Shown piece by piece: positions 9,629 through 24,816 of a stretch of 62,038 nucleotides of DNA. Origin of the DNA: Thalassovita gelatinovora (GTDB taxonomy: Bacteria > Pseudomonadota > Alphaproteobacteria > Rhodobacterales > Rhodobacteraceae); contig NZ_CYSA01000024.1 in the NCBI RefSeq assembly GCF_001458355.1, forward strand, positions 1 to 62,038. Direction: 5' to 3'. The position numbers were made by a program, and so were the translations under genes. A model generated the notes under the pieces. That model saw only the letters and a program-made list of their open reading frames with translations. It made no database searches and had not been told where the DNA came from. Position 1 is the first letter of the stretch; every line of letters begins with the position of its first letter.

Positions 9629-11257
9629 TTATTGCGGGGTGAGCCGATAGATGGCGTTTTCCACATCGGACACGACATAGATGCTGCCATTTCCACCCAC
9701 TGCGACACCGCTGGTCACATAGGTTGGCGGCGTTCCCTTGGCGGCCACCACCCCCATGGCAATGCTTGCGGCCAATTCCGTGACAGCCCCAGTTGCCGGG
9801 TCGATCGAGATTACCCGCTGTTTGCCAGCCTCTGCCACGATCAATGTGCCGTCGGGCGCGATATCGATCCCTTCGGGACCAACAAGCCCTTCTGCCACCA
9901 CGGTTTTAGCGCCGTTGGCCAAATCCACACGCGATACCGTGCCTGCCCCGGCTTCGGTGACATAAACGCCCTGATCCTTCAAAACCAAGCCCACTGGAAG
10001 CACCAGACCGTCGATCAGAACTTCGCGTGTGTCACCATGTTCACCCGAAACATTGACCAAGCTTCCAGTGGCAAGTTCGGCCACGAGATAGCTGCCATCG
10101 GCCAGTTCAACCGCATCCTGCGGGGCCGCGAAGTTGTGGAACATATGTAGAGATTCGCCCGTTTTACGGTCAAAAACCTGAACCGAACTGGTAAACCAAC
10201 TGGACAGGATCACATGATCCTTGTTGGCCCGCGCATTGAATGGGTATTCCAGATGATCGGCCTGCATCCGTGCGACATCTGTCACGGCACCGGTGGCGGC
10301 GTCGATGGTGCGATAGGCGAACAGATCGGCCAGATACAACGTTTCGCTGCCATCGTCATCAGCAATCAAGGCGATCCCGCCCGGGCTTGCCAGCGCGCCC
10401 TTGACCACCTGCCGCACGGCCCCGGTTTCTGGATCGATTTCCTGAATTCCGTTATCGGCCATGTTCGACACGAAAATGCGATCTTGGTCATCAATCGCCA
10501 GATTGTCCAACGAGGTCGACAATTGCGCCACCATGGCTTTATCGCCGCTGACCGGATCGATTTTGACCAATTGCCCCAAAGCGGTATCAACCACCCAGAT
10601 ATTGCCCTTGGAATCCAGGTTAACGGCGGCTGGAACCTTGAACCCGTCTGCGACGGTTTCGATGTCTCCGGTATCCGCATCAATGCGTACGACCTGCCCC
10701 TTGAACCACAAAGGCCCGTAGATCTTGTCATCGGGACCGAACTGGAATCCGTTCAGACCGCCCATTCCTTCAATGATTTTGCGCGGTGGCGTTTCACCAC
10801 TGGTGTCGATTTCATATAATGCATCGCCAATGAACACTTGCGACGCATACAGCCGCCCGTCGGACCGGTAAGCCAGCGAATTGATCCCGGGCAGGCCCGA
10901 AGCGAGTTTTTTCACCGTGCCGCCGGGGGCGCGGACATAAATGTCCCCGGTGATGAATCCAGTCCATGCCATCGTGCCGTCAGGCGCAAAGGCGATATCG
11001 TCGGCCATCCCATCAGGGTTGGCAATTTCCACCCCGACCTTGCCGGTTGCGCGATCAACGTTGTAAATCGATTGCCCGATCACGCTTCCCGCGTAAAGCT
11101 GTCCGTTCGGATCGATACCCAACCCGTGAACACCATGAAAATCCGATCCCGGCACGAACAGATCAACCGCATAACCATCTGCCAAGGCTGGCATTGCGAC
11201 CCCGATCGTCAACGCCAGCGCCGACACAGTGCGGCGTGTCCAATTCATTAACATCAT
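9629..11257 (-). CDS. Secreted beta-propeller protein (SMP-30/NHL/Vgb-like)
   Basis: The 542-residue product starts at the ATG at 11257 (or the next one at 11254), preceded by GGGAGGAG. Residues about 1-27 are a Sec signal peptide (TRRTVSALALTIGVAMPALA). The rest is a chain of beta-propeller blades with repeated signatures such as GLGIDPNGQLYAGS, DIAFAPDGTMAW, NIWVVDTALGQLVKIDP, GIALIADDDGSETLYLADL and GIDIAPDGTLIVAEAG. These resemble gluconolactonase, strictosidine-synthase-like and virginiamycin-B-lyase folds. It should be periplasmic. The roughly 12 repeats suggest two propellers. No substrate can be named, and it is a single-gene unit. Confidence 0.72.
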   Translation of the reverse strand: MMLMNWTRRTVSALALTIGVAMPALADGYAVDLFVPGSDFHGVHGLGIDPNGQLYAGSVIGQSIYNVDRATGKVGVEIANPDGMADDIAFAPDGTMAWTGFITGDIYVRAPGGTVKKLASGLPGINSLAYRSDGRLYASQVFIGDALYEIDTSGETPPRKIIEGMGGLNGFQFGPDDKIYGPLWFKGQVVRIDADTGDIETVADGFKVPAAVNLDSKGNIWVVDTALGQLVKIDPVSGDKAMVAQLSTSLDNLAIDDQDRIFVSNMADNGIQEIDPETGAVRQVVKGALASPGGIALIADDDGSETLYLADLFAYRTIDAATGAVTDVARMQADHLEYPFNARANKDHVILSSWFTSSVQVFDRKTGESLHMFHNFAAPQDAVELADGSYLVAELATGSLVNVSGEHGDTREVLIDGLVLPVGLVLKDQGVYVTEAGAGTVSRVDLANGAKTVVAEGLVGPEGIDIAPDGTLIVAEAGKQRVISIDPATGAVTELAASIAMGVVAAKGTPPTYVTSGVAVGGNGSIYVVSDVENAIYRLTPQ

Positions 11258-11491: not shown

Positions 11492-11851
11492 TCAACCCAC
11501 CAGAGCCGTCAGTTCAATTTCGATTCGGTACTTCGAATCGATCAATCCACATTCGATCATCGTGGCGACGGGCGGATTGGCACCGAACACCTGCGACAGG
11601 ATCGGCCAGCAGGGTTCGAATTCTGCTGCGTCCGGCAGGTAATAATTCACCCGCACGGCATTTGCGAAGGAACTCCCCGCCTCATCCAGCGCCTTGCCGA
11701 TGGTGTCGAGCGCCGCGCGGCATTGGTCCTCGACCGTGTCGCCCTGCCCCACAGTGCCGGCCACATGGACGAAACCCCCGGCCACAACGGCCCGGCAATA
11801 GCCGATCTTGGCTTCGAATTCGCCGCCCGAATGAATGCGTTTGATGGTCAT
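11492..11851 (-). CDS. Rid (YjgF/YER057c/UK114) family protein
   Basis: The 119-residue product fits the small trimeric Rid fold: MTIKRIHSGGEFEAKIGYCRAV, GGFVHVAGTVGQ, AALDTIGKALDEAGSSFANAVRVNYYLPD and the C-terminal YRIEIELTALVG. RidA removes reactive imine and enamine intermediates. At the position of the RidA catalytic Arg (PARSCVE in E. coli) this protein reads PVATMIEC, so Arg is missing; it probably belongs to one of the Rid subgroups without imine-deaminase activity. The ATG at 11851 gives the family length; upstream in-frame ATGs would add about 47 unrelated residues. Confidence 0.83.
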   Translation of the reverse strand: MTIKRIHSGGEFEAKIGYCRAVVAGGFVHVAGTVGQGDTVEDQCRAALDTIGKALDEAGSSFANAVRVNYYLPDAAEFEPCWPILSQVFGANPPVATMIECGLIDSKYRIEIELTALVG

Positions 11852-15328: not shown

Positions 15329-15949
15329 TCACCAGACATCGGGGTCGATTCCCTGCTGCCGGAGATGGTCGAACTTGTCCTGCAAGTAGCGCTGGAAACG
15401 TTGATTTTGATAGTCCTGCGTCACCACGTATTCTAGCGAACTGAGATAGTGGAACGGTTTGAGATAGCCGGGCATGCGAAAGGTTTCGGCCCGTCGCATG
15501 TCCGCGGCACCGGCATTGGCACCGTCACATAATATCGTGGTCGGGGTGAAATTCACGAACCATTTTTCCGCCAGATCGCGTTCTTCCAAGGCTTCGCCAT
15601 CGAAGTCCAACACTTCGCGCGCCCCAAACATGTCAAGCTGCACCACATCGAAATGGGCGGTAATATACTCGACGATTTCACGACGTCTGAAATTGACCTG
15701 GTGCAATTCCCGGCAATAGGGACAGCCGCGTTGTTCCCACAGGATCATCAGGTTGCGGCCGTTTTGCGCCGCAGTGGACAGGTCATCGCCCAATTCCAGA
15801 AAGGAATCGGTGAACCAAGGTTGTTTGTGCAACCCATCGTCGCCCAGCACGGCCTCGCCCGTATCAGCCCCCCAGGCTGCAGCGGGCAAAATCGCCCCCG
15901 CCAGACCGAGGCCAGCCCCGTTTTTAAGAAGATTGCGTCTAGTGAGCAT
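15329..15949 (-). CDS. Tat-exported SoxW-like thioredoxin-fold protein
   Basis: The 206-residue product begins MLTRRNLLKNGAGLGLAGAI, a twin-arginine signal. The mature part is a thioredoxin fold with active site CPYC (C76, C79) in WEQRGCPYCRELH. It aligns clearly with the SoxW gene product at 22624-23178: both have GDDGLHK, EQRGCxYC, VVQLxMFG, DFDGxxL and FTPT. GGAGGAAAACG precedes the ATG at 15949. It is downstream of soxD but separated by a strong terminator, at the place where Paracoccus carries soxE and soxF. It probably supplies or takes thiol reductant for Sox proteins in the periplasm (inference). Confidence 0.85.
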   Translation of the reverse strand: MLTRRNLLKNGAGLGLAGAILPAAAWGADTGEAVLGDDGLHKQPWFTDSFLELGDDLSTAAQNGRNLMILWEQRGCPYCRELHQVNFRRREIVEYITAHFDVVQLDMFGAREVLDFDGEALEERDLAEKWFVNFTPTTILCDGANAGAADMRRAETFRMPGYLKPFHYLSSLEYVVTQDYQNQRFQRYLQDKFDHLRQQGIDPDVW

Positions 15950-16003
15950 CGTTTTCCTCCGCAAACGTTGCGCACCCATTGTGCCATCAAATCGTCAAAA
16001 CGC

Positions 16004-16055: not shown

Positions 16056-17114
16056 TTATTGCGATACGGATTTCAGATACTCGGTCACAGCCGCGATATC
16101 CTTTTCCTTTTTCAGACCGACAAAGCTCATCTTGGTTTTCGCGATGAAGTCTTTCGGCTTGCTCAGGAACGCGGCTAAGTTTTCGTCGGTCCATGTTTCA
16201 CCGGAGTCACCGAATTCCTTCATCCCTTTGGAATATTTGAAATCTTCGATCACCGCGACCGGACCACCGACCACGCCGTTCAGCATCGGGCCGGTCTTGT
16301 TCTGGGCACCTTCACCGACCTGATGGCAGGCTTTGCACTTCTTGAAGACCTTTTCACCGTCTTTGACCAGTTCGGGGTCAAGTGCGGCAGCTTCTTCCAC
16401 AACGGGCTCAGCCGCCGGTTCTTCCGCTTTGGCTTCCTCGACCGGGGCGGCTGGTTCTGCCGGAGCTTCTTCAGCGGCGCCCTCTTCTTCTGGAGTCACG
16501 TTCAGGACCGTGGCGCGCATGGTGATCTTCACCTCGCCTTCCTTGCAGTCTTTCATGCAGGGTTCGGTCCAGAACGATGCTTCGGCAGTTTCGCGGTCAT
16601 CGACGATGAAACCGCCCGCATTCGGCATTTCCACATCAAGGAAGTTTTCGTTGCTTAGAACGAAGTCGTCTTCGACGATATAGTTCGAATACAGGATATA
16701 GGCCGTGATCGCATAGACGTCGTCATCGCTCATGGTCTGAGCGGCACCGAACGGCATCGAACGGCGGACATAGTCATAGACGGTCGACAGGTAAGGCCAG
16801 TAAGACCCAACGGTCTTCAGCGGGTCCTTATCGGCCAGCGTGCCATCCCCTCCGGCCAGTTTCGGCCAGTTGTCCACGCCTTCTGCGAATTCACCGTGGC
16901 AGATGGCACAGTTTTCCGAAAAGATCGCTTCGCCATCTTCGACAGAACCCGATCCGACCGGCAGGCCGGTGCCATCGGGGGAAATATCGTGATCCCACGC
17001 TGCGACTTCTTCGGGCAGTGCCGGGCGGCCAATGCCATATTTTTCGGCCAAAGCAGGAGATGCGGTCAGAGCGGCCAGAGCGGATCCGATCAGGAAATTA
17101 CGATACTTCGACAT
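16056..17114 (-). CDS. soxD: Sulfane dehydrogenase cytochrome subunit SoxD
   Basis: The 352-residue product has a Sec signal (MSKYRNFLIGSALAALTASPALA) and two c-type haem motifs: CAICH (69-73) in the N-terminal domain and CKACH (about 260-264) in the C-terminal cytochrome-c2-like domain. An Ala/Pro/Glu-rich linker of about 50 residues (about 205-255) joins them. It takes electrons from the SoxC molybdenum centre when the sulfane sulfur on SoxY is oxidised. The ATG at 17114 overlaps the soxC 3' end by 17 bases, indicating coupling. The linker is long, acidic and repetitive and may differ between strains. Confidence 0.93.
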   Translation of the reverse strand: MSKYRNFLIGSALAALTASPALAEKYGIGRPALPEEVAAWDHDISPDGTGLPVGSGSVEDGEAIFSENCAICHGEFAEGVDNWPKLAGGDGTLADKDPLKTVGSYWPYLSTVYDYVRRSMPFGAAQTMSDDDVYAITAYILYSNYIVEDDFVLSNENFLDVEMPNAGGFIVDDRETAEASFWTEPCMKDCKEGEVKITMRATVLNVTPEEEGAAEEAPAEPAAPVEEAKAEEPAAEPVVEEAAALDPELVKDGEKVFKKCKACHQVGEGAQNKTGPMLNGVVGGPVAVIEDFKYSKGMKEFGDSGETWTDENLAAFLSKPKDFIAKTKMSFVGLKKEKDIAAVTEYLKSVSQ

Positions 17115-18372
17115 TTTCGGCCTCCCCATCTGCCTTGACCCACCAGGTCTGAATGCAGTTGTTGTGATAGACAGAGTTTTCTCCGCGAATTTCGCGCAGC
17201 ATGTTCTTGGTCGGTTGAACATAGCCGGTTTCATCCATGGCGCGCGATTGCAGGTACATTTCTTCGCCGTTCCATTCGGTATCGAGATAGAAACGGGTCA
17301 GGGCCATCGGTTGACCAGGATTGGCCAGACGCGCGGTTTCCCAAGTCTTGCCACCATCCTTGGACACGTCAACGCGGGTGATTGCGCCACGTCCCGACCA
17401 AGCCAGACCGGTAATGACCAGCGGGCCATGACCGTGCTTGATCGGCGATTGCGGGCTGGGCGACGTGACCACCGATTTGGCGTCCATGACCCAAGTCCAC
17501 TTGCGCGCGGTGCCGTCTTCCAGCGTGTCGGTGTATTTGGACGTTTCTTCACGGCTTTCGACCGCGATTTCCTTCACCTCGATGCGGCGGACCCACTTGA
17601 CCCACATGTTGCCTTCCCAGCCGGGAACGACCAGACGCACGGGATAGCCATGTTCCTTGCGCAGCGCCTCGCCATTGGCTTTGAAGGCGATGATGCAGTC
17701 ATCAAGCGCCTTTTCGATCGGAATCGAACGGCCATTCGAAGAGGCGTCGGCACCTTCGACATAGACCCATTTGCCTTCGGGCTTCACGCCGGCTTCTTCC
17801 AGCAAGGTGCGCAGCGACACACCGGAATATTCCATGTTGTGGATCATGCCGTGGGTGAATTGCGCACCGTTCAGCTGCGCCCCAGCCCATTCCATGCCGG
17901 TATTGGCGGCACATTCCAGGAAGAAGGTTTTGTTGACACGCGGGAAGCGTTCCAGATCTTCGTAGGTGAAAACCAGCGGCGTATCGACAAGGCCGTTGAT
18001 CATCAGGCGGAAATCTTCCTTGCGCAATTCGATCGCACCGGAATGGTGACGTTCGAACGCACAGCCCTGCGGCGTGATGGTGCCGTCCAGCGCGTGGATC
18101 GGGGAAAAGTTAATCGAACTGATCGTGTCAGCGGTCAACCATTCGACGTTGCGGCGAATCACATCGCCTTCGAACTGAATCGGCAGGCCATAAGGCGTTT
18201 CATCGACACCGTCGCCGGTGCCCATTGCCCAGTCCTGTTTTTCGGTGATCAGAGGATCGGGGCCCGCTGCATTGGCAGCCCCGGCCCCGGCCATTACCCC
18301 CGCCGTCGACGCCAGCGTCCCTTTCAGGAACGCGCGCCGCGAAGGTTTTTTGCTGGTGAAGCGGACGGTCAT
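17098..18372 (-). CDS. soxC: Sulfane dehydrogenase molybdopterin subunit SoxC
   Basis: The 424-residue product has a Tat signal (SRRAFLKG, residues 11-18) as expected for a folded molybdoprotein. The likely Mo-coordinating cysteine is C154 in FFLECAANTG, followed by the sulfite-oxidase-like dimerisation domain (ITRVDVSKDGGKTWE near 320). SoxC with SoxD removes six electrons from SoxY-bound sulfane sulfur, so thiosulfate can be oxidised fully to sulfate without sulfur-globule storage. An 8-bp-arm palindrome and a promoter-like element sit just upstream, suggesting that soxCD has its own SoxR-controlled promoter. Confidence 0.95.
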   Translation of the reverse strand: MTVRFTSKKPSRRAFLKGTLASTAGVMAGAGAANAAGPDPLITEKQDWAMGTGDGVDETPYGLPIQFEGDVIRRNVEWLTADTISSINFSPIHALDGTITPQGCAFERHHSGAIELRKEDFRLMINGLVDTPLVFTYEDLERFPRVNKTFFLECAANTGMEWAGAQLNGAQFTHGMIHNMEYSGVSLRTLLEEAGVKPEGKWVYVEGADASSNGRSIPIEKALDDCIIAFKANGEALRKEHGYPVRLVVPGWEGNMWVKWVRRIEVKEIAVESREETSKYTDTLEDGTARKWTWVMDAKSVVTSPSPQSPIKHGHGPLVITGLAWSGRGAITRVDVSKDGGKTWETARLANPGQPMALTRFYLDTEWNGEEMYLQSRAMDETGYVQPTKNMLREIRGENSVYHNNCIQTWWVKADGEAENVEVS

Positions 18373-18397
18373 CTGTCTTTGGCTCCTGTTACATTAT

Positions 18398-18419
18398 CAA
18401 ATTCATTTTCGTGAATTTG
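18398..18419. promoter_or_regulatory. Probable SoxR operator upstream of soxC
   Basis: Perfect palindrome CAAATTCA (18398-18405), 6-base spacer, TGAATTTG (18412-18419). The same 7-bp core with the same spacing is upstream of soxX (22565-22584). On the minus strand it covers the -10 of a promoter-like pair, TTTACT (18433-18428) - 17 bases - GAAAAT (18410-18405). Assignment to SoxR is by position and by typical ArsR-family operator shape. Confidence 0.7.
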
Positions 18420-18448
18420 TTAGGGATAGTAAAGCGCTTTTTCGTCGT

Positions 18449-18470
18449 CGTTGGGGCTTACGCCCCAACG
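18449..18470 (-). other. Hairpin over the soxB stop codon
   Basis: Perfect 9-bp arms CGTTGGGGC (18449-18457) and GCCCCAACG (18462-18470) with a 4-base loop. On the minus strand the loop is GTAA, so the soxB TAA stop is displayed in the loop. No T-run follows, so it is more likely an mRNA-processing or stability element than a terminator. Confidence 0.6.
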
Positions 18471-20161
18471 ACCTTGACGTTGTCGCGCGGTTGTACCGAA
18501 ACGGTGCCTTGTTTGCGGATATGATTTTCCACCACATCCCAAATCTGCGGACCTTCGGTGCCTTCGTTTACGCTGGCCCAACCGGCAACCATATAGGTCT
18601 TCGCCGGATCGATCTTTTCGCCGGTCTTGAGCAGCGTCATATTGCTGATCCGTTCACCCTGCGGTTTGGTGACGTCGATTTCGTAGCCCATGCCACCGAT
18701 CCGAACCATGTCGCCGCCCTGTTGGTAATAGGGATCTGAGTTGAACAGGTTGTCGGCCACGTCTTCGAGGATGACATTGATGAATTCACCCGTCATTTCA
18801 GACCGATAAGCCTGACCATAGGTCATCGAAGTGACGTTCCAGATATCTTCGCGGGTGATGTCCTGTCCGGGCAGGATCGACGGCCCCCAACGAACTCCGG
18901 GCGACATCGCGATATCGGCATCGCGTTCACTGATCAGTGCATCGCAGATCAGATCGTCCCAAGTGCCGTTGAAGTTACCGCGACGATACAGCAGGCTGCT
19001 ATCGTCAGTGCGGCCAATCACTTCGCTCATCTGGTCCAGATGCGGCGCTCGCTGCTCATCGATGACCTTGGTCACCGCAGCGTCCGGTTCGATCACGTCG
19101 CTGAAGATCGGGATCAATTTGTGCCGGAAGCCCATCATCCGGCCATCGCGGACATCCAGATCGATTCGCGACACGAATTTACCGTTCGACCCCGAGGCGA
19201 TGATGATGGTGTCACCCGCCACAACCGGTTCCGGTATCGCGTCATGGGTATGACCCGACAGGATCACGTCAATGCCCTTGACCCGGCTGGCCATCTTTTT
19301 GTCCACGTCAAAGCCGTTATGGCTCAGCAGGACGACAAGTTCTGCGCCTGCGGCCTTCACTTCGTCGACCACTTCCTGCATCCGTTCGTCGCGGATACCA
19401 AAGCTGTATTCGGGGAACATCCAACGCGGGTTAGCGATCGGCATATAGGGGAAGGCCTGACCGATTACGGCGATTTTCACGCCACCGCGTTCGAACATCT
19501 TGTAGGGGGCGAAATCTTCGGCCGGTTCGTCCCATTCGGAATCAAAGATGTTGGCACCCAGTGCCGCAAAAGGCAGATCCTGCACGATTTCGCGGACCCG
19601 GTCACCGCCCAAGGTGAATTCCCAATGGAATGTCATCGCATCGGGTTTCAGCATGTTCATCACGTTGACCATGTCCTGGCCTTCGGTGTGGTAGCAGGTA
19701 TAGGATCCGTGCCATGTATCACCGCCATCCAGCAACAGCGCATCGGGCCGTTCGGCGCGGATCGAGTTGATGACGGTCGACACCCGGTCCAGACCACCAA
19801 CCTTGCCATAGCCTTGTGCCAGCGCGGTAAAATCTTCGTAAGTCAGCGCATAAGCCGAAGGCGAACCGTCGGCGATGCCATACATCTTGCGGAAATCGGC
19901 TCCGGTGACATGCGGCACCTGACCAAACGCGGCACCAACGCCGAGATTGATTTCAGGTTCGCGGAAATAGATCGGTTTGAGCTGCGCGTGGATGTCGGTG
20001 ATATGGATCAGCGACACGTTGCCGAAGGTATCGAATTGCAGCAGCTGATCCTGTGTCAGTTTCTGCTGTGCGGCCAGGCGCGCCCAGTTGCCAAATCCCG
20101 ATGCGCCAAGCATCGCGGAGGCAGCCATAGATACCTGCAAAAAATCGCGGCGAGAGATCAT
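18458..20161 (-). CDS. soxB: Thiosulfohydrolase SoxB
   Basis: The 567-residue product starts with a Tat signal (MISRRDFLQVSMAASAMLGA). It has the 5'-nucleotidase-like metallophosphoesterase motifs: HITDIHAQL (D56, H58), LLLDGGDTWHGSYT (near 170), VLLSHNGFDVD and ILSGHTHD, which hold the two Mn ions. It hydrolyses the sulfate group from SoxY-S-thiosulfonate in the periplasm. Length matches Paracoccus SoxB. It lies between soxA and soxC, with intercistronic hairpins on both sides. SoxB is the usual marker gene for this pathway. Confidence 0.97.
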   Translation of the reverse strand: MISRRDFLQVSMAASAMLGASGFGNWARLAAQQKLTQDQLLQFDTFGNVSLIHITDIHAQLKPIYFREPEINLGVGAAFGQVPHVTGADFRKMYGIADGSPSAYALTYEDFTALAQGYGKVGGLDRVSTVINSIRAERPDALLLDGGDTWHGSYTCYHTEGQDMVNVMNMLKPDAMTFHWEFTLGGDRVREIVQDLPFAALGANIFDSEWDEPAEDFAPYKMFERGGVKIAVIGQAFPYMPIANPRWMFPEYSFGIRDERMQEVVDEVKAAGAELVVLLSHNGFDVDKKMASRVKGIDVILSGHTHDAIPEPVVAGDTIIIASGSNGKFVSRIDLDVRDGRMMGFRHKLIPIFSDVIEPDAAVTKVIDEQRAPHLDQMSEVIGRTDDSSLLYRRGNFNGTWDDLICDALISERDADIAMSPGVRWGPSILPGQDITREDIWNVTSMTYGQAYRSEMTGEFINVILEDVADNLFNSDPYYQQGGDMVRIGGMGYEIDVTKPQGERISNMTLLKTGEKIDPAKTYMVAGWASVNEGTEGPQIWDVVENHIRKQGTVSVQPRDNVKVVGA

Positions 20162-20266
20162 TTCTCAAAGCTCCAAATGGTTAGAGTGGTCCAGCCCCTA
20201 GCCTGACGGATAGAGGTCAGGCCGGTTTGGCCTAGATTTCAACCTGTTGAGAATTATTATGGTTGT

Positions 20267-20293
20267 CCGAGGGCACCGTAAAAGCGCCCTCGG
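20267..20293 (-). other. Intercistronic hairpin between soxA and soxB
   Basis: Arms CCGAGGGC (20267-20274) and GCCCTCGG (20286-20293), loop of 11 bases, starting 9 bases after the soxA stop. There is no T-tract on the minus strand. Probably an mRNA-stability or partial-termination element. Confidence 0.55.
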
Positions 20294-20302
20294 AAGGTGT
20301 TT

Positions 20303-21157
20303 TTAGTTACGCACAGACGGCCCTTCGACCGACAACCCATTGCCGCGCGAAGCGACATAGAGTTCCAGCGCCAGGAATTCGTTGCTGCCGGGACTGTAAG
20401 TTTCGGCACGGGTGTCGCGGACGCACCCTTTGAAACGACCCTGCGGGGTGGTCAGCTTGGTATCCTTGAGACGATACACCGGGAACCCGTTGATATGACC
20501 TTGGCTCAGGTGGTCGGCGCGAATCATGTTGCCATAGTTTTCTTCGTGGCAGCTTGCGCAGGACAGATCCAACTGACCGGTGCGGGTGTAGTACAATTCC
20601 TTGCCTTGTTCCCACATCGCCTGGGCCGGGCCGTCGATCGCCACGTTCACGGGCATGCCGCGCGACACCGAAGTGACCAGCGCTTCCATGTTCTTGGCGT
20701 CACCGGCGTCATATTTCCACGCTTCCGCGCCCATCCGGTTGGTCCGGCAATCGTTGAACTGCATCTGAAGGTTGCGAACCTCTCCGGCGGCTTCGTTCCA
20801 TTTCGGGTAGACCGCCTTGACGCCCTTCATGCTTTCCTGGACATCACCGTGGCAGGACGCGCAGGATTTGCCTTCGCTGCCGTCAACGGTTTCCCAAACG
20901 TCCATAGCGGCTTCGACGCCCAGCATGCCGGGGTTGTCGAAATCATCCATTTCCATTGCCTGGGTGCCGTCATCGCGGAAATGCCAGCCGGAAATGATTT
21001 CGTCCAACGCATCCGAAAGATGCGCCGGCGCCGCGGTCTTGGTAACGATTTCAATTTCGCCGTTGATGACAAGGGTGTCATCGTCCGCGTCCGCCATACC
21101 CAATGTCGGAACCGACAGGGCCAGGGCGGCAATTGCGCTCATTGGCTTGAATTTCAT
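20303..21157 (-). CDS. soxA: L-cysteine S-thiosulfotransferase, dihaem subunit SoxA
   Basis: The 284-residue product has a Sec signal (about 1-22) and two haem-c motifs, CASCHG (C99-H103) and CASCHE (C200-H204), so it is the dihaem type of SoxA. The active-site cysteine is probably C245 in KGCVRDTRAETYSPGS, which carries a persulfide and ligates haem. With SoxX it joins thiosulfate oxidatively to the SoxY cysteine. GGAGGAAG precedes the start. A 12-bp hairpin lies in the gap from soxZ, about 21 bases before the ATG. Confidence 0.95.
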   Translation of the reverse strand: MKFKPMSAIAALALSVPTLGMADADDDTLVINGEIEIVTKTAAPAHLSDALDEIISGWHFRDDGTQAMEMDDFDNPGMLGVEAAMDVWETVDGSEGKSCASCHGDVQESMKGVKAVYPKWNEAAGEVRNLQMQFNDCRTNRMGAEAWKYDAGDAKNMEALVTSVSRGMPVNVAIDGPAQAMWEQGKELYYTRTGQLDLSCASCHEENYGNMIRADHLSQGHINGFPVYRLKDTKLTTPQGRFKGCVRDTRAETYSPGSNEFLALELYVASRGNGLSVEGPSVRN

Positions 21158-21178
21158 CTAGCTTCCTCCCTGAAAGCG

Positions 21179-21204
21179 GCCTTGTTCCCGGTCGGGAACA
21201 AGGC
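21179..21204 (-). other. Strong intercistronic hairpin between soxZ and soxA
   Basis: Perfect 12-bp arms GCCTTGTTCCCG (21179-21190) and CGGGAACAAGGC (21193-21204) with a 2-base centre. It starts 10 bases after the soxZ stop and lies 21 bases before the soxA start. There is no T-run, so protection of the upstream soxXYZ mRNA from exonucleases is the most likely role. Confidence 0.65.
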
Positions 21205-21214
21205 GCTCTGATTA

Positions 21215-21544
21215 TTAAGCGATCGCGACGGTTTTGTTTTCTTCGTAAACCGATCCATCGTCGTCGTACCAAGTGAATTTGAAATCACCTGCTTCGGGCA
21301 CAACGGCTTCGAATTCGAAATACGGGTTGGTCGAAATCGCCGGTTCCATCGTTACGTCAATCACGGACTTACCGTTGAATTCGCACGTGAACCGATTAAT
21401 GATCGAACGCGGAATGACCGAGCCATCCTTGTTCTTGCGCTGACCTGATTCCATGTTGTGGCTGATCAGGGTCTTGAGCGTAACGGTTTCACCAGCAGCC
21501 GCCTTTTTGGGGGCTTTGACGCGGGGTTTAACACCTTCTGCCAT
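21215..21544 (-). CDS. soxZ: Thiosulfate oxidation carrier complex protein SoxZ
   Basis: The 109-residue product matches SoxZ: MAEGVKPRVKAP at the N-terminus, LISHNMESGQRKNKDG, then the beta-sandwich segment VIDVTMEPAISTNPYFEFEA and FTWYDDDGSVYEE at the end. SoxZ has no signal peptide and is exported bound to SoxY by the Tat route. It forms the SoxYZ carrier on which all pathway intermediates are held. It follows soxY by 21 bases in the conserved order. Confidence 0.96.
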   Translation of the reverse strand: MAEGVKPRVKAPKKAAAGETVTLKTLISHNMESGQRKNKDGSVIPRSIINRFTCEFNGKSVIDVTMEPAISTNPYFEFEAVVPEAGDFKFTWYDDDGSVYEENKTVAIA

Positions 21545-21565
21545 TTTTTATCTCCTGTATCCTGA

Positions 21566-21988
21566 TTAACCGCCGCAGCCGCCGATGGTGACCTTGACGG
21601 TCTGGGCTGCCTTGGCAAAGGAACCATCCGCCAGCTTGGCGATGGCAACGACGTCTTGCGTGCCCGCCAGACGGATACGAGTCGATGCCGACTGCGATCC
21701 GGCCAGTTCGCCGAAGTTGAAGGTGGCCACACCCGGGGTCGGGTTACCGGTTGCCAGCAACAAAACCGCCGAAGCACCGGGCGCATCAACCGCGACCGGC
21801 ACGGTATTACCGTTTTCGGCGATTTCCGGAGCGGTCAGAGTGACCCCGCCTTCACCGATATCAGCACCGCCGGTGAAGGCGGCAATTGCGTCATCCGCAG
21901 CCGCATTCAGCCGGAAAGGCAGAACGGTCAGAGCCGCCGCCCCCAGCCCAAGCGCCAGCGTATCGCGTCTTGAGAATTCCATACTCAT
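21566..21988 (-). CDS. soxY: Thiosulfate oxidation carrier protein SoxY
   Basis: The 140-residue product has a Tat signal (FSRRDTLALGLGAAALTVLP) and ends in VTIGGCGG, the swinging-arm GGCGG tail whose cysteine (C138) carries the covalent sulfur intermediates. The body is an Ig-like fold, with ENGNTVPVAVDAPG and RIRLAGTQDVVAIAKLADG. It is followed by soxZ. The intact tail shows the pathway should be functional. Confidence 0.97.
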   Translation of the reverse strand: MSMEFSRRDTLALGLGAAALTVLPFRLNAAADDAIAAFTGGADIGEGGVTLTAPEIAENGNTVPVAVDAPGASAVLLLATGNPTPGVATFNFGELAGSQSASTRIRLAGTQDVVAIAKLADGSFAKAAQTVKVTIGGCGG

Positions 21989-22011
21989 CTCCTTACTTCA
22001 GGCCCGTCAGG

Positions 22012-22485
22012 TCACTCTTTCAGAGTGCCCAGAAACGCGACCACATCTTCAATTTGCTGGGCCGACAACAGCGGGTCCAACGGACCTTCTGCGGCCTTGC
22101 CAGTATAAGCGTTACCCGGACGGGTGTAGCCATCGACCTTGAAATAGGCAGGCATGACCGTGCCTTCATAGGTCATCTTGGCATTCACCAGGATGCCGCG
22201 CAGCTGGGTTGCATCCCAGCGATCCGCGACGCCGTCCAGAATCGGGCCTACATTGCCGTGAAACGGCGCATCGGCCAGAGCGGTGATTTCGTGGCAGGCA
22301 ACGCAGTTCCCGATCGATTTGGCTTTCATGATATTGGCGCCCTCTTCAGGGTTGCCAGCAACGCCGGTAAGCGATGCTTCTACGCCGCCATCTTCATTGA
22401 AAACCACATCGGCATAAGAGACTGGATTGGCGAATGCCGCCCCAGCAGCCAGCGTTGCCGCCAGTGTCAGTGTTAAAAGCCTCAT
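22012..22485 (-). CDS. soxX: Thiosulfate oxidation monohaem cytochrome SoxX
   Basis: The 157-residue product has a Sec signal (MRLLTLTLAATLAAGAAFA) and one haem-c site CVACHE (C61-H65). A Met in GTVMPAYFKVD is the probable distal ligand. SoxX partners SoxA and passes the electrons on to cytochrome c. GGGAGGAAAC precedes the start. The gene heads the soxXYZABCD set, and its upstream gap contains an operator-like palindrome overlapping a sigma-70-like promoter. Confidence 0.95.
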   Translation of the reverse strand: MRLLTLTLAATLAAGAAFANPVSYADVVFNEDGGVEASLTGVAGNPEEGANIMKAKSIGNCVACHEITALADAPFHGNVGPILDGVADRWDATQLRGILVNAKMTYEGTVMPAYFKVDGYTRPGNAYTGKAAEGPLDPLLSAQQIEDVVAFLGTLKE

Positions 22486-22536
22486 GTTTCCTCCCTTGGC
22501 TACCAGATCTTTGACTGAGATAGCTCTGTGTACCGT

Positions 22537-22566
22537 AGTCTACGCTCCGCCCTAACGCAACATCAA
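22537..22566 (-). promoter_or_regulatory. Probable sigma-70-type promoter of soxX
   Basis: On the minus strand, -35 TTGATG (22566-22561), 18-base spacer and -10 TAGACT (22542-22537). The -35 shares two bases with the SoxR operator candidate at 22565-22584. The expected start lies about 40 bases before the soxX ATG. Confidence 0.5.
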
Positions 22567-22584
22567 ATTCATGATTTTGAATTT
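22565..22584. promoter_or_regulatory. Probable SoxR operator in the soxW-soxX gap
   Basis: Perfect 7-bp arms AAATTCA (22565-22571) and TGAATTT (22578-22584) with a 6-base spacer. It matches the site upstream of soxC in both arms and spacing. SoxR of Paracoccus pantotrophus is known to bind the soxW-soxX intergenic region, which supports the assignment. Confidence 0.72.
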
Positions 22585-23933: not shown

Positions 23934-23951
23934 TACCGCAATTCCTTGATT

Positions 23952-23976
23952 AATTCACATATTCATATTATGTTAT
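23952..23976. promoter_or_regulatory. AT-rich divergent soxV/soxS control region with degenerate operator half-sites
   Basis: The gap between soxV and soxS is very AT-rich. It contains AATTCA at 23952-23957 and ATTCA at 23961-23965, half-sites like those of the palindromes upstream of soxX and soxC, plus ACATA-N7-TATGT at 23957-23973. No full AAATTCA-N6-TGAATTT copy is present. SoxR of Paracoccus also binds between soxS and soxV, so a weaker site is plausible. Confidence 0.45.
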
Positions 23977-24474: not shown

Positions 24475-24816
24475 ATGGGACTACCAGTGTTCGACGACAG
24501 CATCACCGATGACGAAATGGACCTGATGGTGGACAATGCCACCACCGCGTCCAATTTCCTGAAGGCTGTCAGCCACGAAGGTCGGCTGTTGATCCTGTGC
24601 CACTTGGTTACCGGCGAAAAATCCGTCACCGAACTGGAAGATCTTTTATCGGCGCGGCAGGCTGCGGTATCACAGCAATTGTCGCGCTTGCGTCTGGAAG
24701 GGTTGGTCGTTCCCAGACGCGACGGCAAGGCGATCTATTATCGTTTGGCCGATGACCGCCCTCGGCGTATACTTGAACTGGTTTACGAGCTGTTCTGCGC
24801 CGACGACAAAGGCTGA
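24475..24816 (+). CDS. soxR: ArsR-family repressor SoxR
   Basis: The 113-residue product is a winged-helix ArsR/SmtB-type regulator: NFLKAVSHEGRLLILCHLVTG, then the recognition region LLSARQAAVSQQLSRLRLEGLV and the wing RRDGKAIYYRLAD. The cysteine in ILCHL is the position used for thiol sensing in SoxR and BigR homologues; a second Cys is near the C-terminus (FCADDKG). AAGAGGTG upstream supports the ATG at 24475; an in-frame ATG at 24379 would add 32 residues. It should repress the sox genes in the absence of reduced sulfur. Confidence 0.9.
   Translation: MGLPVFDDSITDDEMDLMVDNATTASNFLKAVSHEGRLLILCHLVTGEKSVTELEDLLSARQAAVSQQLSRLRLEGLVVPRRDGKAIYYRLADDRPRRILELVYELFCADDKG

Follow-up and report, generated by a model that had tools for sequence, protein, structure and literature searches.

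The sox cluster of Thalassovita gelatinovora, a member of the Rhodobacteraceae, raises the question of whether its repressor acts on the whole gene row from one place or has a second hold inside it, on soxC and soxD. In the stretch of DNA analysed here, the window (62,038 nucleotides, positions 1 to 62,038 of contig NZ_CYSA01000024.1, assembly GCF_001458355.1), one palindrome stands upstream of soxX and another with the same arms stands between soxB and soxC. SoxR represses thiosulfate oxidation in the alphaproteobacteria in which it has been studied, and we consider it likely that each palindrome serves as an operator for this ArsR-family repressor, which is encoded nearby. The initial annotation had described two palindromes with common 7-bp arms and a 6-base spacer, the soxC copy reaching 8 bp, and both are present as it described them:

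18398..18419, no strand assigned: candidate SoxR operator of soxC, CAAATTCA-TTTTCG-TGAATTTG, with 8-bp arms; core ATTC-N8-GAAT at 18401-18416
22565..22584, no strand assigned: candidate SoxR operator of soxX, AAATTCA-TGATTT-TGAATTT, with 7-bp arms; core at 22567-22582

On the soxC side the shared motif AAATTCA-N6-TGAATTT occupies 18399-18418, inside the palindrome with 8-bp arms, which lies in the soxB-soxC gap 25 bp ahead of the soxC ATG (18372); on the soxX side the palindrome lies in the soxW-soxX gap, about 80 bp ahead of the soxX ATG (22485). These are the only two exact matches to the motif in the window. The shorter AATTCA-N6-TGAATT likewise has two exact matches in the whole genome (3,902,797 bases, 30 contigs), both of them these, where the base composition of the window predicts about 0.04. 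Since the core ATTC-N8-GAAT alone is found at 55 places in the genome, specificity would have to come from the longer arms, which a third exact core in the window (11523-11538) lacks. At up to three mismatches the window holds three matches against 2.17 expected, i.e. chance level, and the case therefore depends on exact matches and on conservation. A wider regulon of the exact motif in this genome was considered and dropped: six of the seven 1-mismatch matches were inspected, of which one is intergenic beside a gene with no visible link to sulfur and five fall in open reading frames of at least 90 amino acids (some of them doubtful).

The presumed cognate regulator is encoded beside its target genes:

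24475..24816, plus strand: soxR, encoding an ArsR-family, SqrR-like repressor; predicted start within a frame open from 24379

SoxR scores 35.1 bits with Pfam HTH_5 (cut-off 22), and its 89.5 bits with the BigR model of NCBIfam (NF040642) lie below the cut-off of 155, which marks it as a relative of BigR and not as BigR itself. It matches the ArsR-family PDB chain 13ct (identical in sequence to 6o8l), which we take to be SqrR, at 3.7e-35, and its two cysteines (ILCHL, ELFC) align with the Cys of MIMCYL and EQFC in that chain. The recognition site deduced for R. capsulatus SqrR in the consulted passages of PMC9774250 is ATTC-N8-GAAT, and both palindromes match this core exactly, with core and spacing identical to those of the operator of SqrR, a related ArsR-family sulfane-sulfur repressor. 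According to the same passages, YgaV of E. coli is a further related repressor of this kind, and its ygaVP site shares this core and spacing and lies at promoter elements (PMC9774250). The sites described here differ from both in arms that extend to AAATTCA/TGAATTT, in a linked regulator that is SoxR, and in having soxX and soxC as targets. Also close are the systems of SoxR in Paracoccus pantotrophus, Pseudaminobacter salicylatoxidans and Hyphomicrobium denitrificans, whose published passages, as far as consulted, carry no operator consensus; H. denitrificans has a truncated Sox system that lacks soxCD. Neither such a consensus nor a soxC operator was found in the passages of the literature consulted, which do not include Rother 2005, Mandal 2007 and Shimizu 2017. 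The operator type itself is already known; what is new is its internal placement and its turnover within the sox cluster.

The initial annotation had proposed that related sox clusters be searched for the motif and that a lack of conservation would speak against an operator; the motif turned out to be conserved. For the relatives we used the 80 best-matching SoxC loci (1,615,772 bases) out of no fewer than 588 that species-level genomes contain, a set that leans to close relatives. It contains 33 exact matches, of which 25 lie in soxW-soxX gaps, six in soxB-soxC gaps and two before soxC in loci with no soxB nearby (L034, L086), compared with a mean of 0.12 and a maximum of 3 for 59 arm-permuted control palindromes. 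When spacers of 0 to 15 were compared, all 33 matches fell at 6, two were found at spacer 1 and none elsewhere. The core is present in 61 of 73 soxW/V-soxX gaps (0.22 expected) and in 13 of 79 soxB-soxC gaps (0.05 expected), and in none of 75 gaps each for X-Y, Y-Z and Z-A; the first two counts include the own locus, and the expected values come from base shuffles of the gaps. A scan for the pattern across 394 genomes of the family, again with the own genome included, returned an exact match in 139, and of the 30 loci listed from it, 16 have the match ahead of soxX and 14 have it within mechanically listed open reading frames of at least 90 amino acids. Arm sequences are conserved across the relatives while spacers vary freely, the pattern expected of a protein-bound sequence and not of an RNA stem. 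It is true that the minus-strand RNA folds the soxC palindrome into an AU stem, as an attenuator or terminator would; but a copy with the same arms stands upstream of a conserved promoter-like block at soxX, changes in the arms are mostly one-sided (e.g. CATTCA with TGAATT) and not compensatory, and the excess of cores in soxB-soxC gaps speaks against a chance palindrome. We therefore regard an RNA element or a coincidence at soxC as highly improbable.

Whether SoxR is the protein that reads these sites is a separate matter, on which two observations weigh against our assignment. One is a SqrR-like paralog of SoxR, 60% identical, encoded elsewhere in the genome (C15:262602), which could share the sites or take them over. 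That this or another ArsR-type regulator binds the palindromes instead of SoxR is conceivable, since the paralog has retained its likeness to SqrR along with the two cysteines, and in H. denitrificans the related repressors SoxR and sHdrR are reported, in the part of the source consulted, to bind the same fragments (PMC12423496). Yet the paralog lies away from the sox genes, its 3,276-base locus has neither sox genes nor a core even at one mismatch, its recognition helix differs from that of SoxR, and soxR itself is in the cluster. Moreover, operator fit follows the type of SoxR: a soxX site at two or fewer mismatches accompanies 57 of 61 SoxR rows in which no Ser precedes RQ in the recognition helix, as against 3 of 11 rows in which one does, in a count made by eye and confounded by descent. 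This pattern is consistent with SoxR reading the site, although it also follows descent, and we judge replacement by another regulator improbable. In the soxW-soxX gaps of L027, L063, L077, L078, L082, L033, L067, L083 and L085, where SoxR has Ser before RQ, altered sequences, often TATGC or CATGC, mostly replace the AATTCA arms.

The other observation concerns Paracoccus, to which the initial annotation had appealed, naming soxW-soxX and soxS-soxV as the regions bound by its SoxR. Binding regions of Paracoccus SoxR within its sox cluster have been reported (PMC10451225, consulted in part), but the loci of P. pantotrophus DSM 11072 and of a P. denitrificans plasmid (L140, L141) contain neither AATTCA-N6-TGAATT at up to one mismatch nor ATTC-N8-GAAT, and have no soxC site. 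Both sites are also missing from another Paracoccus plasmid (L143), and on a Ruegeria plasmid (L142) only that of soxX is present. The Paracoccus data can thus back at most the location before soxX, and the analogy holds for that location and not for the sequence. The assignment to SoxR draws instead on the SqrR-type core, the linked soxR gene, the uniqueness of the motif in the genome and the conservation of its arms, with its absence from the Paracoccus loci on the other side.

Both palindromes had further been said to overlap promoter elements, which the analysis bears out in part; a simple sigma-70 scan returned no promoter in either the soxX or the soxC region. The elements recognised are these:

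22012..22485, minus strand: soxX (TIGR04485, 82.7 bits, cut-off 61)
22532..22560, minus strand: candidate soxX core promoter, TTGCGT at 22555-22560 and TACGGT at 22532-22537, within a conserved block
18393..18398, minus strand: possible -10-like GATAAT of soxC, adjoining the operator; no -35 recognised

Directly downstream of the soxX operator the relatives conserve a block, TTGTTGCGTT...CTACGGTATAC, which holds the candidate promoter, and it is reasonable to place the soxX operator at or beside the -35 region. At soxC there is the -10-like element only, and a GATnAT element adjoins the soxC operator in several relatives.

Does the inner site then give soxC and soxD a control of their own, as the initial annotation implied? 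The genes and the structure concerned are as follows:

18458..20161, minus strand: soxB (TIGR04486, 840 bits, cut-off 550)
18447..18472, minus strand: 11-bp perfect hairpin, no U-run; the soxB stop codon falls within the loop
17098..18372, minus strand: soxC (TIGR04555, 587 bits, cut-off 420)
16056..17159, minus strand: soxD, c-type cytochrome partner, assigned from position and same-place matches in relatives; cytochrome c models score below cut-off only

The start of soxD is uncertain, its open reading frame being listed from 17234. Downstream of it, 15329-15979 encodes a second thioredoxin-fold protein (Pfam Thioredoxin_2), likely a SoxW-like relative. In the window as a whole, soxS, soxR and a YeeE-like soxT run divergently from soxVW-XYZAB-CD; the names soxS, soxV, soxW and soxT are ones we presume from position and likeness to the layout in relatives.

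A separate SoxR gate for soxCD is supported indirectly, by the position of the site before soxC, by the hairpin at the soxB stop and by the operator in two loci with no soxB nearby. In the genus, six of nine genomes have soxC, the own included, and all six carry both sites; among five congeners analysed apart from the own genome (two of them, L013 and L014, also belong to the 80-locus set), two keep the exact operator before soxC despite a soxB-soxC gap of about 220 bp and unlike sequence. Among soxB-soxC gaps, the soxC site is found solely in those of 60 bp or more (13 of 26, compared with none of 53 shorter ones), and the end of the core lies 19-39 bp from the soxC start in 12 of the 13 and 61 bp from it in L017, distances for which the starts in relatives were partly extrapolated. 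The hairpin at the end of soxB is stable beyond chance: the minus-strand RNA of 18430-18490 folds at -35.1 kcal/mol (z -6.8), and none of 200 shuffles is as stable. Among the relatives, hairpins in this gap are stronger where the site is present (median -22.9 versus -12.6 kcal/mol; Mann-Whitney p 6e-6), T-runs of 5-8 occur in the gaps of several loci that carry the soxC site, and some of the 13 site-less gaps of at least 60 bp also hold strong hairpins (to -30.9 kcal/mol). A stricter terminator scan from the soxB stop gave hits in 6 of 18 site-bearing gaps and in 2 of 69 others (p 0.0008); it misses hairpins that begin in soxB and finds none in the own genome, and one of its six (L055) is the operator palindrome itself.

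Several results weigh against separate control. The soxC site is found in a minority of clusters (the 13 of 79 gaps given above), and the sigma-70 scan is empty for the soxB-soxC gap. A search for an intrinsic terminator at soxB, as a GC hairpin followed by a U-run, found in the own genome the hairpin and no U-run, so that some read-through from soxB is likely and the hairpin is at most a partial terminator, or else an element of RNA stability or a spacer. Its association with the site is no longer significant once pairs are made independent (of 6 such pairs about 3.0 support it and 0.1 contradict it; median p 0.25). Finally, the distribution of the site over the SoxC tree requires 12 changes when loci with detached soxC are included, seven of them forced by well-supported branches, and 10 when they are left out; label shuffles average 14 changes, with 44 of 500 as low as 12. 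The soxC site is often gained or lost and hardly tracks descent.

The same results lend themselves to a different account, in which SoxR binds before soxC where there is no soxC promoter, and acts as a roadblock for transcription reading through from soxX, or adjusts its level, in a single operon. The empty scan of the soxB-soxC gap, the missing U-run and an operator only 25 bp from the soxC start codon all suit it. Against it stand those loci in which soxC is detached. In L034 and L086, where soxB is absent from the locus and read-through from it cannot serve soxC, soxC is preceded by two exact cores exactly 40 bp apart (at 9854/9894 and 9885/9925, respectively) with a GTATACAAA element between them. 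The same double core occurs at 9994/10034 in L138, a locus fetched for its two matches in the pattern scan, whose soxC lies about 960 bp from soxB. The two congeners that retain the operator across a rebuilt gap are likewise hard to accommodate, and a roadblock would add little if the soxX promoter were itself repressed. We hold the roadblock account to be unlikely, if less so than a different binding protein; the detached loci show best that soxC can possess an operator-bearing upstream region of its own.

Operator-like sites elsewhere in sox clusters bear on how such a module may move. In 87 loci (our own, those of the original set in which both gaps are present, and a further 10, of which L137-L139 were chosen for at least two matches in the pattern scan), the soxA-soxB gap carries ATTC-N8-G[AC]AT in 60 cases against 0.24 expected. 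The longer form of this operator-like site is ACATTC-N8-G[AC]ATGT, mostly 25-40 bp before soxB (e.g. L018, L022, L041, L043, L062), and a terminator-like hairpin is present in 49 of the 60 gaps with the site and in 14 of the 27 without it (p 0.008). This roseobacter site resembles the soxC site in type of core, in distance to the next gene and in the frequent hairpin of its gap, and differs in that its outer arms are like ACATTC/GAATGT and that it precedes soxB instead of soxC. It is absent from the corresponding gap of the own genome (20162-20302 of the window) and from those of the five congeners. The soxB and soxC operators tend to exclude each other (Fisher p 0.02 in the 87 loci, 0.07 in the 77 original ones, uncorrected for descent) and eight loci carry both; their complementarity is at most suggestive.

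A third SoxR region may lie between soxS and soxV:

23948..23972, minus strand: soxS-soxV element CATAATnTGAATATGTGAAT, with two TGAAT half-sites as a direct repeat; candidate third SoxR region

The element is conserved in many loci, in many of which a TTGAC element stands about 17 bp upstream, and it is likely a soxV promoter with a TGAAT direct repeat. A SoxR palindrome in this gap was sought and rejected: none of the 80 loci has a site there at up to one mismatch, the direct repeat being found in its place, and a looser scan for the core in relatives gave one match in a soxS-soxV gap.

In 13 loci (L020, L025, L032, L035, L039, L040, L045, L048, L050, L072, L075, L081, L084), and also at 12436 in L139, the core ATTC-N8-GAAT lies downstream of soxD before a divergent gene of about 305 amino acids with a twin-arginine-like start, at a distance of 3-21 bp in the 13. 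Its product has a metallo-beta-lactamase fold in all three cases tested, and we presume that the gene may be soxH. In L139 it is the full motif that precedes a gene of this kind; the own genome has only 34-37% identical relatives of the protein, located elsewhere.

Taken as operators, the two sites suggest a simple scheme. When sulfane sulfur is lacking, a SoxR dimer would sit on each operator at its core, and a sulfur bridge between the two cysteines of SoxR, as demonstrated for the H. denitrificans protein, would release it. The operator beside the -35 region of soxX would gate soxXYZAB, while that before soxC, just past the hairpin at the soxB stop, would gate soxCD separately, most probably through a promoter of its own that has a short leader and overlaps the operator. 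Directly observed are the sequences, their uniqueness in the genome and conservation, the hairpin and the adjacent repressor gene; that SoxR binds and represses, and that soxC has a promoter and is transcribed separately, is what we infer from the arrangement of the sites. More broadly, we tentatively propose, at somewhat less than an even chance, that the roseobacter sox cluster is split into separately SoxR-gated pieces by operator modules that shift within it, often together with a hairpin. In many species such a module would precede soxB, in others, T. gelatinovora among them, soxC, and in some both genes, with a double operator at 40-bp distance where soxC is detached.

An operator with defined arms and a fixed spacer, unique in its genome, makes the targets of SoxR searchable, and from its copies before soxC and soxB one would predict separate gating of the later part of the pathway. 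SoxCD determines the fate of the sulfane sulfur on SoxYZ, which is either oxidised in the periplasm or kept available as a signal. Because SoxCD removes the SoxYZ sulfane sulfur that feeds the SoxR signal, separate gating of soxCD would set the strength of this feedback, and the roseobacter repressor may in this way shape its own signal.

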